DNA of 50,089 bases from Candidatus Nitrosocosmicus sp. Lineage in GTDB: Archaea > Thermoproteota > Nitrososphaeria > Nitrososphaerales > Nitrososphaeraceae. The translations under genes were made by a program, and so were the position numbers. The stretch's first letter is position 1, and each line of letters starts with the position of its first letter. Shown piece after piece: positions 18,251 to 24,936 of this stretch. The notes under the pieces were generated by a model. It ran no database searches, had not been told where the DNA came from, and saw only the letters and a program-made list of their open reading frames with translations. The DNA lies in the NCBI GenBank assembly GCA_025934495.1, contig JAICXY010000012.1, positions 1-50,089 on the forward strand, written 5' to 3'.

Positions 18251-19186
18251 ATGGTTTTTAAAAATGATTCTTTTATTATTAATCCTTCAATTAAAATTGA
18301 TCACGTTAAACTAAAAGTACTGAACTTAAGAAAATCTATCAATTTTTATCAATCGATTTTTGGATTCAAAGTTTTAGAAAAAAGATCAAATCAAAAGACA
18401 GCATTTTTATCATTGGCTACGGATTATAAAGAAGAATCTTCACTACTACTTGTTTTGACTGAAGTAAAAGATAAAAATACTATAAGTATTAGTGAAATAA
18501 AAAAAGAGGCAGGACTTTATCATTTTGCAATACTTTTACCAGAAATCAAATATCTATCGGCTTTTCTTCGACATATTCAAAATAACCTTGAATCACAATA
18601 TTATGACGGTATGGCAGATCATAGTGTATCAGAATCAATATATATTCATGATCCTGATTTCAATGGGATTGAAGTATATAAAGATAGATCGTCTACGAAA
18701 TGGAAATGGATTAACAATAAGGTACATATGATTACCGAGCCTTTAAACGTAACATATTTACTAAGTAAAGATATAGAAGAAATATGGAATGGATTGCCAT
18801 CGGGTACAAAGATAGGTCATGTCCATTTGCATGTATCCAATCTCGTTAGATCAAAAAAATTTTACCATGATATTCTTGGTCTATATCATACTGCATCATA
18901 TCCCGGCGCCCTTTTTTTTGCTGCTAATAGTTATCACCATCACATAGCAATTAATACTTGGATAGGAACAAATATTTTACCAGCAAACAACAATCATTAC
19001 ATGCCGGGGCTTGATCATTATGCAATTATCCTCCCTAACAGAGAAGAGATAAATAGGTTAAAGAATCGCTTTATTGAATCAAAAATTTCCACTGATGAGA
19101 CATTAGATGAGTCAGACCAACAATATCCCTATTCGTTTTATATTTATGATCCCGATGGAATAAAAATACAGTTTTTGTGCAAATAA
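18251..19186 (+). CDS. Two-domain VOC superfamily protein (catechol 2,3-dioxygenase/CatE-like)
   Basis: 311 residues with two glyoxalase/bleomycin-resistance (VOC) domains. Domain 1 begins IDHVKLKVLNLRKSINFYQS and ends IYIHDPDFNGIEVYKDR; domain 2 begins IGHVHLHVSNLVRSKKFYHD, has YHHHIAINTW and ends IYDPDGIKIQF. The His in GHVHLHV and in the HHHIAINTW block are candidate metal ligands. The third ligand, usually Glu in the last strand, is Glu in domain 1 (GIEVY) but Gln in domain 2 (KIQF), so metal binding in domain 2 is open to doubt. The layout resembles Bacillus-type CatE ring-cleaving dioxygenases; substrate unknown. Monocistronic, starting just after a family-1 MITE, which may carry its promoter region. 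Confidence 0.82.
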   Translation: MVFKNDSFIINPSIKIDHVKLKVLNLRKSINFYQSIFGFKVLEKRSNQKTAFLSLATDYKEESSLLLVLTEVKDKNTISISEIKKEAGLYHFAILLPEIKYLSAFLRHIQNNLESQYYDGMADHSVSESIYIHDPDFNGIEVYKDRSSTKWKWINNKVHMITEPLNVTYLLSKDIEEIWNGLPSGTKIGHVHLHVSNLVRSKKFYHDILGLYHTASYPGALFFAANSYHHHIAINTWIGTNILPANNNHYMPGLDHYAIILPNREEINRLKNRFIESKISTDETLDESDQQYPYSFYIYDPDGIKIQFLCK

Positions 19187-20811: not shown

Positions 20812-22500
20812 TTAAGTTTTTGGTAAAATATTCAATGCAATATTTTCCAAATACATTTGTATATGTGGCTCTATGGTCCATATATTCTCATTTTCAAAAA
20901 GATGTCCATATCTTTGTGAACTCCCAATAAGCTCTCTTTTATTTAACTTTTCTAAATATATAGAATTAATTCGGGATTCATTAAACCCATTTTTTCTAGC
21001 CAATGAATCTAAAAGATCATGTACTCCGGAACCATGTTGAGCTGCTTCTTTTATTCTATATGCAATTTCTTTTGGGATTCCAATTTTTTCAGCTAATTTG
21101 CGATGTACTCGTTTTCCAAGATTATCATAATTACTACCATTGTTTTGAATATTAAGTCGTGGATCAATCCTTAATACCGTATCTATCAAATTTGTATCCA
21201 AAAAAGGTTCTCGTAATTCTATACTCTGCGACATGGTTATTTTATCTTCTCTCTCCAATGTTTCTTTATATAATAGCTTAAGATCTTGAATCATATACTC
21301 CAGAATTTTCTCGTATCCATATTTTTTAACGATTTTAGAATACCACGAGTATCCCCCAAAAAGTTCATCAGCTCCTTGGCCGGTAAGCATAACTCGTATT
21401 CCTTGTTCATGAGCCAATTTAACAGCACCATAGATAGGTATGGCGACTTCCACCTGACCCATATTATCATCTTCAATTATATTAATTATTTTTGGGATAA
21501 TTTTTTCGACATCCATTTCACTCAGTTCTTCTACTTCCAATTTGAGATCAAGACTTTTTGCAATTGTAAGGGAATTAACAATATCATTTGAATCTTTAAT
21601 TCCAGAAGTATAGCAAACAACTTCTGGAACCATTTGTTTTGCTAAATAAGCTACAATTACACTATCAATTCCACCAGAAAAAACTATTCCAATTTTTTTA
21701 AAATCACCCACACGTTTTTTCATAGATTCGAATAATGTATTACTATATGCATTAACGGCTGAATCAATATCGGTATATAGAATTGGATACCTTTCACCAA
21801 TAGATTTTTTTGTATTAACCGTAATCGGAATAAGAGTAGTCTTAAAATTGGAAAATCCATTTCTATGTGAAATGACTAGAGCATATCCAGGTAAAAGCCT
21901 TTGAATATTATTAAACATATTTACTTCCCATAAAGCTTTTTTCTCGGATGCAAAGGCAATAAAATCATTATTTTCACCATAGTAAATTTGCCTGACTCCA
22001 ATACCATCTCGTACTATTACAATATTGCCGGTAGATTGTTCTTTTATTGCTAGAATATATATACCATCAAGTTGATCAACTGTTCTTTTTATCGCTTCAA
22101 TAAGATCACCTTTAGTTTTTTGATAATGATCTTCGAGAAGGTGAACAATAACTTCACTATCGGTTGAAGTAATAAAATTATGATGGGACAAAAGATTCTT
22201 AAGTTTTTTATAATTATAGATTTCACCATTGTGTTCAAGTAAAAGTTTTTTATCGCAACTCATAAATGGTTGGGGGCCACAAGAACCACCTACTATTGCC
22301 AACCTACTATGTCCTAAAACCTCATGACCATTTGCTTGTGAAAAAAATAATTTATCCAAAGTATTAGAGTAAATTACCTGATTCTCTGTGGCCAATCCAA
22401 CACCATCCGGGCCTCGATTTTTCATACAATACAACATTTTACTTATCAATGGGGTAACATTTCCATCCTTTTTATTTAAAATTCCAACAATTCCACACAT
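20812..22500 (-). CDS. asnB: Asparagine synthase (glutamine-hydrolysing)-like amidotransferase
   Basis: 562 residues when started at MCGIVGIL. That start is required because the Ntn-type glutaminase needs Cys2 as its N-terminal nucleophile; the frame opens 13 codons earlier, but that start would bury it. AAGGAA lies just upstream of this ATG. Glutaminase domain: RGPDG, GHSRLAIVG, LEHNGEIYNY. Synthetase domain: PP-loop VFSGGIDSV, GQGADELFGGYSW and REPFLDTNLID, all conserved. The enzyme would activate a carboxylate with ATP and amidate it with glutamine-derived ammonia; aspartate is the default substrate. It lies 86 bp downstream of a HAD phosphatase and divergent from mpgS, so a paralogous role in amidating another acid is worth testing (see findings). 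Confidence 0.92.
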   Translation of the reverse strand: MCGIVGILNKKDGNVTPLISKMLYCMKNRGPDGVGLATENQVIYSNTLDKLFFSQANGHEVLGHSRLAIVGGSCGPQPFMSCDKKLLLEHNGEIYNYKKLKNLLSHHNFITSTDSEVIVHLLEDHYQKTKGDLIEAIKRTVDQLDGIYILAIKEQSTGNIVIVRDGIGVRQIYYGENNDFIAFASEKKALWEVNMFNNIQRLLPGYALVISHRNGFSNFKTTLIPITVNTKKSIGERYPILYTDIDSAVNAYSNTLFESMKKRVGDFKKIGIVFSGGIDSVIVAYLAKQMVPEVVCYTSGIKDSNDIVNSLTIAKSLDLKLEVEELSEMDVEKIIPKIINIIEDDNMGQVEVAIPIYGAVKLAHEQGIRVMLTGQGADELFGGYSWYSKIVKKYGYEKILEYMIQDLKLLYKETLEREDKITMSQSIELREPFLDTNLIDTVLRIDPRLNIQNNGSNYDNLGKRVHRKLAEKIGIPKEIAYRIKEAAQHGSGVHDLLDSLARKNGFNESRINSIYLEKLNKRELIGSSQRYGHLFENENIWTIEPHIQMYLENIALNILPKT

Positions 22501-22586
22501 TTTTATAATTTCCTTAGGTAATCTAATATTATTGAACAAAATATAAATAGTATTGAAATAATTTAAAAATATATTTATATTCAGAT

Positions 22587-23246
22587 TTAAGTTTTTTTTA
22601 TATAATTCATAATATCTAACAGATCAGGTCTATTGATAATATTCTTGCTTTTACGAATGTAATCATCCTTTGGCATAAATGCGATTCCGGTTCCTGCATG
22701 ATTAATCATGCATATATCACCCTTGGTATCACCAATAGCAAGGGTATTTTTAATATCTACATCGTATTTTTTGGCATAAAACTCCAAATGATACCGCTTA
22801 CAAACAGAAATCTTACAGTAGCAGTTTATTTTTTCCCATCCTAATGGCATATTTATTTCACCTGTGATTATTCCACCAGATATTTTCAAATCATTCGCAG
22901 CAAAAAAATCTAAATTCAATTTATTTACCAAGATTTTAGCTGCGATACTATAGCTATCTGTAATTATACCCAATTTGTATCCTTTTTTCTTTAATAATGA
23001 TATAACTTCATGACAGTTCTTCATTAAAGGTATGGATTCTAAAGCAAACATTATTTCCATCTCATCTATTCCCTTGAGAATAGAAGCTATTTTTTGAGTT
23101 TTAATATATCCAGAAATAGATGAATCAGACTGTATTTGTTTGACTTTATCACATATTCCAAATTTTTTAGATACAACTTCAATTAGTCTACCATCGATTA
23201 CAGTACCATCCATGTCAAAAACAGCCAATTTAAATTTAGATTCCAT
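22587..23246 (-). CDS. HAD-superfamily phosphatase, SerB-like
   Basis: 219 residues from the Met of MESKFKLAVFDMDGT; an upstream in-frame Met at 23294 would add a hydrophobic 16-residue leader and is less likely. HAD motifs: I, DMDGT (both Asp); II, GIITDS; III/IV, GWEKI with Lys, and AIGDTKGDICMI. The small helical cap and sequence style resemble phosphoserine phosphatase rather than the usual mannosyl-3-phosphoglycerate phosphatase (MpgP). It precedes asnB on the same strand and is divergent from mpgS, so it may remove phosphate from mannosyl-3-phosphoglycerate in place of MpgP, or act in serine synthesis (inference). Cytoplasmic, Mg2+-dependent. Confidence 0.87.
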   Translation of the reverse strand: MESKFKLAVFDMDGTVIDGRLIEVVSKKFGICDKVKQIQSDSSISGYIKTQKIASILKGIDEMEIMFALESIPLMKNCHEVISLLKKKGYKLGIITDSYSIAAKILVNKLNLDFFAANDLKISGGIITGEINMPLGWEKINCYCKISVCKRYHLEFYAKKYDVDIKNTLAIGDTKGDICMINHAGTGIAFMPKDDYIRKSKNIINRPDLLDIMNYIKKT

Positions 23247-23727
23247 GATAATACAATATACAATTAATAGAGAAATATTATCATATAATGACATGATCTA
23301 TCAATTTTAACTTCAGCCTCCCTAAACCATTTGTAAAGTGATAATTCTTCATGGAGCTTCTAGAGCGAGAGTGAGAGCGCAAGAAAGCAAAGATATATCG
23401 CATAAGCGATATCTTTTGGTGGCATTCGATGCCGTCTATGTTTAAGATGTTATACATAATCTAAACATTTAGCGATAGGTTAGTATAATTCTAAATGCAG
23501 GACAAAAGATGATCTAGAATATGGTATTATCATTTTGAATTTGTTAAAAATAAAAACCAAATCAATTGATTGTTTGAAAACTTTTTTGTCATACTTGAGA
23601 TGCCATATACACGATATATTATAGACGGATTTTGGTTTTTAAGAGTGATAGAGGATAATAATATACATTTTTATCAATTGTTATGTATCTTATTTATAAG
23701 CTAATATATATAATAGAATGTGAATAC
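23247..23727. promoter_or_regulatory. Divergent intergenic region with two strong hairpins
   Basis: 480 bp between the HAD phosphatase and mpgS. At 23388-23418 AAGATATATCGC-ATAA-GCGATATCTTTT forms a stable stem-loop ending in T residues. About 10 bp on, GGCATTCGATGCC forms a second. The GC-richer segment before it (GAGCGAGAGTGAGAGCGC, 23361-23378) stands out from the AT-rich surroundings. A small RNA or attenuator is possible. Both flanking promoters must lie in this region. Confidence 0.4.
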
Positions 23728-24936
23728 ATGAGATTAGATTATCCATCGAGACATACTGAAAGAATAGGAGCAGTTAGCATTCATGAACTTCAAAAAATTT
23801 ATGAATTAGATTCAGGAGAAATGCCTAGAACTAGTGCTCACAATCATGAACAATCTACCAGAGCATATAGTTATCAGGAATTATCAAGTATATTCCGTGA
23901 ATTAGCCATAGTCATTCCATTAAAAAACGAAAAAATAGGTCTCCTCGAGGGAGTTTTGAGTGGTATTCCGAATGAATGTCTTATCATCATAGTATCAAAT
24001 AGCGAAAGAGCCCCAGTTGATAGATTTTCCATGGAGGTAGAAATGATTAGACAATATTCACAGTTTGCAGACAAAAAAATAATGGTCATTCATCAAAAAG
24101 ATAATGAGCTTGCTAAAATATTTAAAAAAGTAAAATATACATCAATTCTAGATTCCAAAAGTCATATTCGTAATGGAAAAGCAGAAGGGATGGTAATTGG
24201 TATTCTATTAGCAAAAATGCAAAAAAAAAAATATATTGGTTTTATTGATAGTGATAATTATTTTCCAGGCGCAGTAAATGAATATGTAAAGATTTTTGCA
24301 GTGGGTTTCAAAATGGCAACTACTCCCTATAGTAACGTAAGAGTATCTTGGCGATCTAAACCCAAAATTGTAAATAATAAATTACAATTCCCAAAATGGG
24401 GAAGAATTTCTGAATATAGCAATAAATATCTTAATGCATTAATTTCCAATATTACAGGCTATGAAAGTGAAATCATATCGACAGGAAATGCAGGAGAACA
24501 TGCATTATCTATGACTCTTGCCGAAAACCTAAATTACTCGAGCGGATATTCAGTGGAACCTTATGAATTTATCAACATCTTGGAAAAATTCGGAGGCCTG
24601 CTACCTACAGATTCTTCGAATATAATCGAAAAAGGAATTGAAATATTTCAAATAGAATCAAGAAACCCGCACTTTCATGAGGAAAAGGGAGCAGATCATT
24701 TGACAGGAATGATGCAAGCATCTCTTCTCGCAATAAATAATAGTAAAATTTGCAATATAGAATTAACAAAAGAAATAAAAAATCATTTACTCATGTTACA
24801 AATAAAACAAAATTACAAATCACCTAAAATTAACCTTCAAAAAAGACATCACATAATGGACCCAATAAAGGTAATTTCGATTGAAGATTTTGCTGATCTG
24901 GTAATCAAAAATTCTAAAACCTTTTTAAAAATATGA
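23728..24936 (+). CDS. mpgS: Mannosyl-3-phosphoglycerate synthase (GT55)
   Basis: 402 residues from MRLDYPSRHTERIGAVSIHE, which matches the usual MpgS N-terminus; the longer frame from 23683 adds a hydrophobic leader and is not preferred. Conserved blocks: VIPLKNEKIGLLEGVL, IIIVSNSERAPVDRFSMEVE, MVIHQKDNELAKIF, RNGKAEGMVIGILLAKM, FIDSDNYFPGAVNEYVK (DxD-type metal site), WGRISEYSNKYLNALIS, TGNAGEHALSM, GYSVEPYEFI, and FQIESRNPHFHEEKGADH. The enzyme transfers mannose from GDP-mannose to 3-phosphoglycerate, the first step to the compatible solute mannosylglycerate, which protects against salt, heat or drying. The usual partner MpgP is not adjacent; a SerB-like HAD phosphatase stands divergently upstream. 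Confidence 0.95.
   Translation: MRLDYPSRHTERIGAVSIHELQKIYELDSGEMPRTSAHNHEQSTRAYSYQELSSIFRELAIVIPLKNEKIGLLEGVLSGIPNECLIIIVSNSERAPVDRFSMEVEMIRQYSQFADKKIMVIHQKDNELAKIFKKVKYTSILDSKSHIRNGKAEGMVIGILLAKMQKKKYIGFIDSDNYFPGAVNEYVKIFAVGFKMATTPYSNVRVSWRSKPKIVNNKLQFPKWGRISEYSNKYLNALISNITGYESEIISTGNAGEHALSMTLAENLNYSSGYSVEPYEFINILEKFGGLLPTDSSNIIEKGIEIFQIESRNPHFHEEKGADHLTGMMQASLLAINNSKICNIELTKEIKNHLLMLQIKQNYKSPKINLQKRHHIMDPIKVISIEDFADLVIKNSKTFLKI

Follow-up and report, generated by a model that had tools for sequence, protein, structure and literature searches.

A divergent locus of mpgS, a HAD phosphatase and an AsnB-like amidotransferase in Candidatus Nitrosocosmicus: a candidate pathway for mannosylglyceramide

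What could be made by a locus that places an AsnB-like amidotransferase and a SerB-like phosphatase beside the gene for mannosyl-3-phosphoglycerate synthase (MpgS)? The question is raised by a 50,089-nucleotide stretch of DNA from Candidatus Nitrosocosmicus sp. (contig JAICXY010000012.1 of GCA_025934495.1; hereafter the window, corresponding to contig C187 of an assembly of 3.56 Mb with a completeness of 95.7%). An earlier note on this DNA had described the three genes as a divergent group and proposed that they make mannosylglycerate and possibly its amide. All three are present together in the orientation described, the checks possible at the sequence level came out favorable or neutral, and the overall interpretation is thus supported: we consider it fairly likely that the locus defines a pathway for mannosylglyceramide, a neutral compatible solute that would serve as an osmotic-stress protectant. 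The locus comprises the following features:

20812-22500, minus strand: AsnB-like class II glutamine amidotransferase / AMP-forming synthetase, 562 aa (Pfam domains, residues, linkage, co-occurrence)
22587-23246, minus strand: HAD subclass IB phosphatase, 219 aa (HAD-IB/SerB fold, residues, co-occurrence)
23247-23727, no strand: spacer separating the divergent HAD and mpgS genes, where both promoters presumably lie, with one short inverted repeat (gene coordinates, repeat scan)
23728-24936, plus strand: mpgS, mannosyl-3-phosphoglycerate synthase of glycosyltransferase family 55 (GT55), 402 aa (TIGR02460; PDB match 2zu7)

The HAD gene lies directly upstream of the AsnB-like gene, and 481 bp separate it from the divergent mpgS. 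The best start of the AsnB-like gene is the ATG at 22500, giving an N-terminus of MCGIVGIL with the nucleophile cysteine right behind the methionine, and the likely start of mpgS is the ATG at 23728, the family match beginning at residue 19 of a longer open reading frame. The inverted repeat between the HAD gene and mpgS occupies 23390-23417 (AAGATATATCGC-N4-GCGATATCTTTT), and its core is single-copy in the window.

The first enzyme is a clear member of its family, matching TIGR02460 with 588 bits where the cut-off is 351 (E 8e-177; model positions 2-382 of 383) and the MpgS structure 2zu7 with E 1e-108. Both MpgS in these archaea and the phosphatase MpgP in Nitrososphaerales have been published (PMC7603488, PMC7554672, PMC4084955), and MpgS has been reported to be comparatively highly expressed in soil ammonia-oxidizing archaea (PMC11131427). 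Hence the earlier claim of a new solute pathway has to be narrowed, as MpgS-made mannosylglycerate is already in the literature and any novelty would be confined to the HAD step and the amide. A second mpgS, about 61-65% identical to that of the window, is found in eight genomes of the genus (L113, L115, L117, L119, L121, L124, L128, L130); it mostly has its own conserved neighbors, namely ABC transporter genes and kelch-like proteins, with no asnB or HAD gene there, and is missing from the window assembly. In bacterial metagenome-assembled genomes (MAGs) from several phyla (L177, L181, L183, L184, L186), a GT78 one-step mannosylglycerate synthase and an MpgS, the latter with 42-48% identity to the window protein, are encoded about 1-2 kb apart.

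The association of the three genes was followed in 275 genomes of the order, each at least 85% complete, with the proviso that the counts represent related genomes rather than independent events and that some gaps are missing contigs. MpgS was found in 54 of these, the AsnB orthologue in 46 and both in 41. The five genomes with AsnB and no MpgS are G239, G240, G011, whose contig of just 3.8 kb ends right past the HAD gene, and the MAGs G294 and G295, in 330 and 440 contigs respectively. In 27 loci asnB lies next to mpgS, in several gene orders: a divergent arrangement with the HAD gene between them (the genus and G288), a co-directional mpgS-HAD-asnB (G016, G025, G032), mpgS-asnB (G017, G020, G021, G023, G028, G034, G281) and asnB-mpgS-mpgP (G046). 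In five further genomes (G038, G052, G054, G055, G300) mpgS and the HAD gene are adjacent on one strand with no asnB. The layout of the window is therefore conserved across the genus, a point that the earlier note had named as a check, and the linkage recurs elsewhere in the order in other arrangements. Mere inherited synteny was rejected as an explanation, for the flanking genes differ between the subclade of the window and the rest of the genus, and also from one genus to another, whereas the pair or triad persists. These distributions also bear on the possibility that the locus makes only mannosylglycerate, with the AsnB-like protein serving some other stress-co-regulated role, such as formation of a peptide or lipid amide. 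A synthase and a phosphatase would indeed suffice for that product, and some genomes with MpgS lack AsnB. This explanation is nevertheless scarcely credible, given the tight operons with short gaps, including a GT81-asnB-HAD version, and the recurring arrangements, which point to a shared substrate.

The GT81 version is found in G239 and G240, which lack MpgS and instead possess a tight GT81-asnB-HAD operon with short intergenic gaps. Its AsnB and HAD proteins are 40-42% and 46-48% identical, respectively, to those of the window. The glycosyltransferase, of about 240 aa, has the glucosyl-3-phosphoglycerate synthase (GpgS) family NF010496 as its best match (E 2e-53), scoring 181 bits, below the cut-off of 262; in the PDB it recovers GpgS structures (E 1e-29) and the Rubrobacter MpgS 3f1y (E 6.5e-23). 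The situation is reminiscent of the glucosylglycerate pathway in that a GpgS-like synthase of the GT81 family substitutes for MpgS, and differs from it in having a HAD-IB phosphatase and an added amidotransferase. As the same AsnB and HAD occur beside a GT81 enzyme in place of MpgS, the common factor is a hexosyl-3-phosphoglycerate, whichever glycosyltransferase family makes it, and this swap constitutes strong new support, at the level of sequence, for the interpretation given in the earlier note. Genes for a mechanosensitive channel and for a member of the Na+/H+ exchanger family lie within 5 kb of the operon in G239, which fits a role in osmotic stress. The segment concerned (L205:10359-15614) encodes a DUF432 protein, the channel, which is of the MscS type, the exchanger and a radical-SAM protein that resembles lysine 2,3-aminomutase, and is possibly an osmotic-stress island. 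Separately, in G055 (L159) the mpgS-HAD pair is preceded, at a distance of about 1.7 kb and on the same strand, by a GT81-like gene, and both synthase types may coexist there.

The second step of a mannosylglycerate pathway is classically catalyzed by MpgP, a HAD-IIB enzyme, in organisms such as Thermus, Thermococcales and some archaea. The present locus resembles that pathway in its clear MpgS and the accompanying phosphatase, but its phosphatase is of the HAD-IB type with a SerB fold and it includes an extra enzyme, the AsnB-type amidotransferase. The matches of the HAD protein are to HAD-IB/SerB models, with E 2e-34 and 118.9 bits for the SerB model TIGR00338, below its cut-off of 144.15, and not to the MpgP model TIGR01486. 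The earlier note had remarked on the absence of the usual MpgP; this extends to the whole window assembly, at its 95.7% completeness, and to the genus, neither of which has a TIGR01486 match above the cut-off. Among 61 relatives the MpgP cut-off was reached in 16, and close homologues of the HAD protein (40-70% identity) were mostly found in genomes with MpgS and without MpgP. The sole overlap of HAD and MpgP among these relatives is G021, and it comes about via a 3-kb contig that resembles the genus of the window. This contig (L055, G021:C9) carries a genus-type triad in the genome of another genus that has its own asnB-mpgS pair, which suggests either binning contamination or transfer. Across the order, the HAD protein is present in 38 genomes and MpgP in 18, with no co-occurrence, and the 54 genomes with MpgS divide into 32 with HAD, 15 with MpgP and seven with neither.

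An alignment of 32 HAD homologues with the phosphoserine phosphatase (PSP) of M. jannaschii showed that the catalytic D11, D13 and K144 are kept in all of them, as are D167 and D171 wherever the sequence extends that far. E20 and R56 of PSP bind phosphoserine. The former is replaced by R in 31 homologues and by S in one, and the latter by I in all 32; similarly, G100 is replaced by D in 31 and G101 by S in all. A signature that was not observed in SerB, MPxGWExxxCxCxxSVCKR, is also common to the homologues. The AlphaFold model of the HAD protein, with a mean predicted local distance difference test score (pLDDT) of 94, has SerB enzymes as its top PDB matches, M. jannaschii PSP first (TM-scores 0.82-0.85). 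Thus, the protein has the fold and the catalytic DxD, lysine and aspartate residues of SerB, but lacks E20 and R56, carries its own signature and falls under the SerB cut-off. Since the phosphoserine-site residues are lost and the SerB-like fold is kept, its substrate is probably other than phosphoserine. A role as phosphoserine phosphatase was rejected on these losses and on the presence in the same genome of a separate SerB (on C200), which retains E20, R56 and the GG pair. Taken with its distribution, these features make it quite probable that the HAD protein is a mannosyl-3-phosphoglycerate phosphatase of a HAD subclass distinct from that of MpgP.

The AsnB-like protein combines a GATase_7 domain (E 1e-26) with an Asn_synthase domain (E 6e-54). 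It scores 317 bits with TIGR01536, above the cut-off of 267, but that model spans the superfamily broadly, so the substrate is not settled thereby. The immediate alternative is that it is the asparagine synthetase of the organism and that its proximity to mpgS is historical. Besides the score, this view might draw on the window asnB being the only full-length copy (glutaminase plus synthetase) in the genome, on the presence there of AsnRS, above its cut-off, and on the annotation of an asparagine synthase as gained by the ancestor of the ammonia-oxidizing archaea (PMC7603488). Two further Asn_synthase-domain proteins of the genome (G000; 345 aa on C140, L003, and 255 aa on C165, L004) have no glutaminase domain and could be ammonia-dependent; related proteins of 250-290 aa are found throughout the family.

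Evidence on the substrate comes from the active sites, compared by aligning 40 orthologues with E. coli AsnB, human ASNS and other enzymes (human numbering). The glutamine-site residues C1, R48, N74, G75, E76 and D96 are conserved in all 40 orthologues. At the aspartate site, the window protein has N, G, E, Q and T at the positions of human D334, T336, R339, E364 and D400. Throughout the orthologues T337 is replaced by Q, R339 by E or D, E364 by Q and D400 by T or S; D334 is replaced by N in 37 and T336 by G in 34. The E. coli, Klebsiella, Parabacteroides, Latilactobacillus and human enzymes retain D, T, T, R, E and D at these positions, and in human ASNS the E364Q and E364A variants are inactive with aspartate and T336I is nearly so (PMC6748925). 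Because not one orthologue has retained an intact aspartate site, a function in asparagine formation is unlikely, and the orthologues are probably not asparagine synthetases. Consistent with this, the orthologue is missing from other families of the order, which have AsnRS and mostly GatB all the same, and the gene is linked to hexosyl-3-phosphoglycerate synthases from two glycosyltransferase families. GatB is encoded in the window genome as well. On residues, distribution and linkage the asparagine synthetase role was thus rejected, and we regard it as very unlikely. With respect to a second canonical asnB, which the earlier note had seen as a check on its proposal, the window gene is the sole full-length copy, but its replaced residues make an asparagine role improbable. 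The gene is probably misannotated where these genomes list it as an "asparagine synthase".

From the gene set and its conservation, the exclusion of MpgP, the glycosyltransferase swap and the residue changes, all of which are read directly from the sequences, we infer a dephosphorylation by the HAD protein and an amidation by the AsnB-like protein, giving a three-step scheme. First, MpgS would join GDP-mannose and 3-phosphoglycerate into mannosyl-3-phosphoglycerate, a step strongly backed by the function of its family. Second, the HAD-IB enzyme would, with good probability, strip the phosphate to yield mannosylglycerate, replacing the missing HAD-IIB MpgP. Third, and somewhat less surely, the AsnB-like protein would probably use ATP to form an acyl-AMP at the glycerate carboxylate of mannosylglycerate, onto which glutamine-derived ammonia would be transferred to give mannosylglyceramide. 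One might also speculate that the two divergent units would set the ratio of the charged solute to the uncharged amide.

The amidotransferase might alternatively belong to the pathway and act on another substrate, either mannosyl-3-phosphoglycerate prior to the phosphatase or a further-modified hexosylglycerate, with a different end solute or order of steps. Linkage and co-occurrence reveal a pathway and not its step order, and asnB directly adjoins mpgS in several genomes and lies between synthase and phosphatase in G239 and G240. We hold this to be unlikely, as deeper lineages with mpgS-HAD and no asnB imply that the phosphatase there acts on the unamidated intermediate, and the known natural compound is the unphosphorylated mannosylglyceramide.

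For amidation of mannosylglycerate as the last step, there is a mechanistic precedent in the pathway of the osmolyte N-acetylglutaminylglutamine amide (NAGGN), in which AsnO amidates the finished osmolyte (PMC8070244). In both cases the gene of an AsnB-family glutamine-dependent enzyme, known or proposed to amidate a compatible solute, adjoins that of a solute-building enzyme, and two NAGGN amidotransferases also carry Gln at human position 364, as does the AsnB of the locus. Close kinship between the two is not supported: in the AsnB tree the orthologues form their own clade (98/97), apart from asparagine synthetases and NAGGN enzymes, albeit with long-branch warnings, and the window protein scores only 150 bits with the NAGGN model TIGR03104, far under its cut-off of 570. 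The NAGGN enzymes also differ in substrate and partner, the neighbors in the present locus being HAD and mpgS genes rather than ngg. In a literature search that covered few subscription papers, no tie between asparagine synthase and MpgS was found (PMC7603488 mentions both, separately), nor were the phosphatase and amidase roles here proposed for HAD and AsnB.

Mannosylglyceramide is a real solute of Rhodothermus marinus, favored there under salt stress (PMC1224877), which speaks for the proposed product, and the literature passages searched yielded no other natural producer. A number of observations weigh against a mannosylglyceramide pathway. A search of genome contigs with the R. marinus mannosylglycerate synthase (identical to PDB 2bo4) led to two Rhodothermus MAGs. 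Neither has an orthologue of the window AsnB, with only GlmS/PurF-type matches being recovered, and no AsnB-type gene occurs beside the mannosylglycerate synthase gene in the flanks examined. Rhodothermus, which shares the proposed end product, hence serves as a precedent where the product is concerned but not where the enzyme is: the part of the earlier note that invoked its amide stands for the compound, direct support for the enzyme was rejected, and this producer apparently uses another amidation enzyme. Further, three genomes of another family (G104-G106; L207, L208, L209) have the signature-bearing HAD protein without MpgS or AsnB. The TTxR motif is also missing from other AsnB groups (the Mesorhizobium and Deinococcus rows of the alignment), the residue comparison presumes that asparagine synthetases of the E. 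coli/human type are representative, and the AlphaFold model of the AsnB-like protein (pLDDT 60) is too poor for use. Finally, several genomes have all three genes in dispersed positions, among them G282 and G289, each a single contig.

Outside the locus proper, its neighbor at 18251-19186 encodes a 311-aa protein with two VOC (glyoxalase/dioxygenase) domains.

In terms of its implications, we lean slightly towards regarding the AsnB-like protein as the first identified hexosylglycerate amidotransferase and the HAD-IB protein as a new, non-orthologous class of hexosyl-3-phosphoglycerate phosphatase, with accumulation of the solute in Nitrososphaeraceae. To our knowledge, no gene has been assigned to the amidation step of mannosylglyceramide, and the locus offers a concrete candidate from outside the domain to which Rhodothermus belongs. 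Likewise, the HAD protein would fill the apparent MpgP gap in the mannosylglycerate pathway of Nitrosocosmicus-type archaea. The related lineage with the GT81 enzyme would make a hexosylglyceramide, possibly glucosylglyceramide, a compound that we do not know from nature. If the proposal is correct, soil ammonia-oxidizing Nitrososphaeraceae would accumulate mannosylglyceramide, and an uncharged solute built with glutamine nitrogen would suit cells that live on ammonia.

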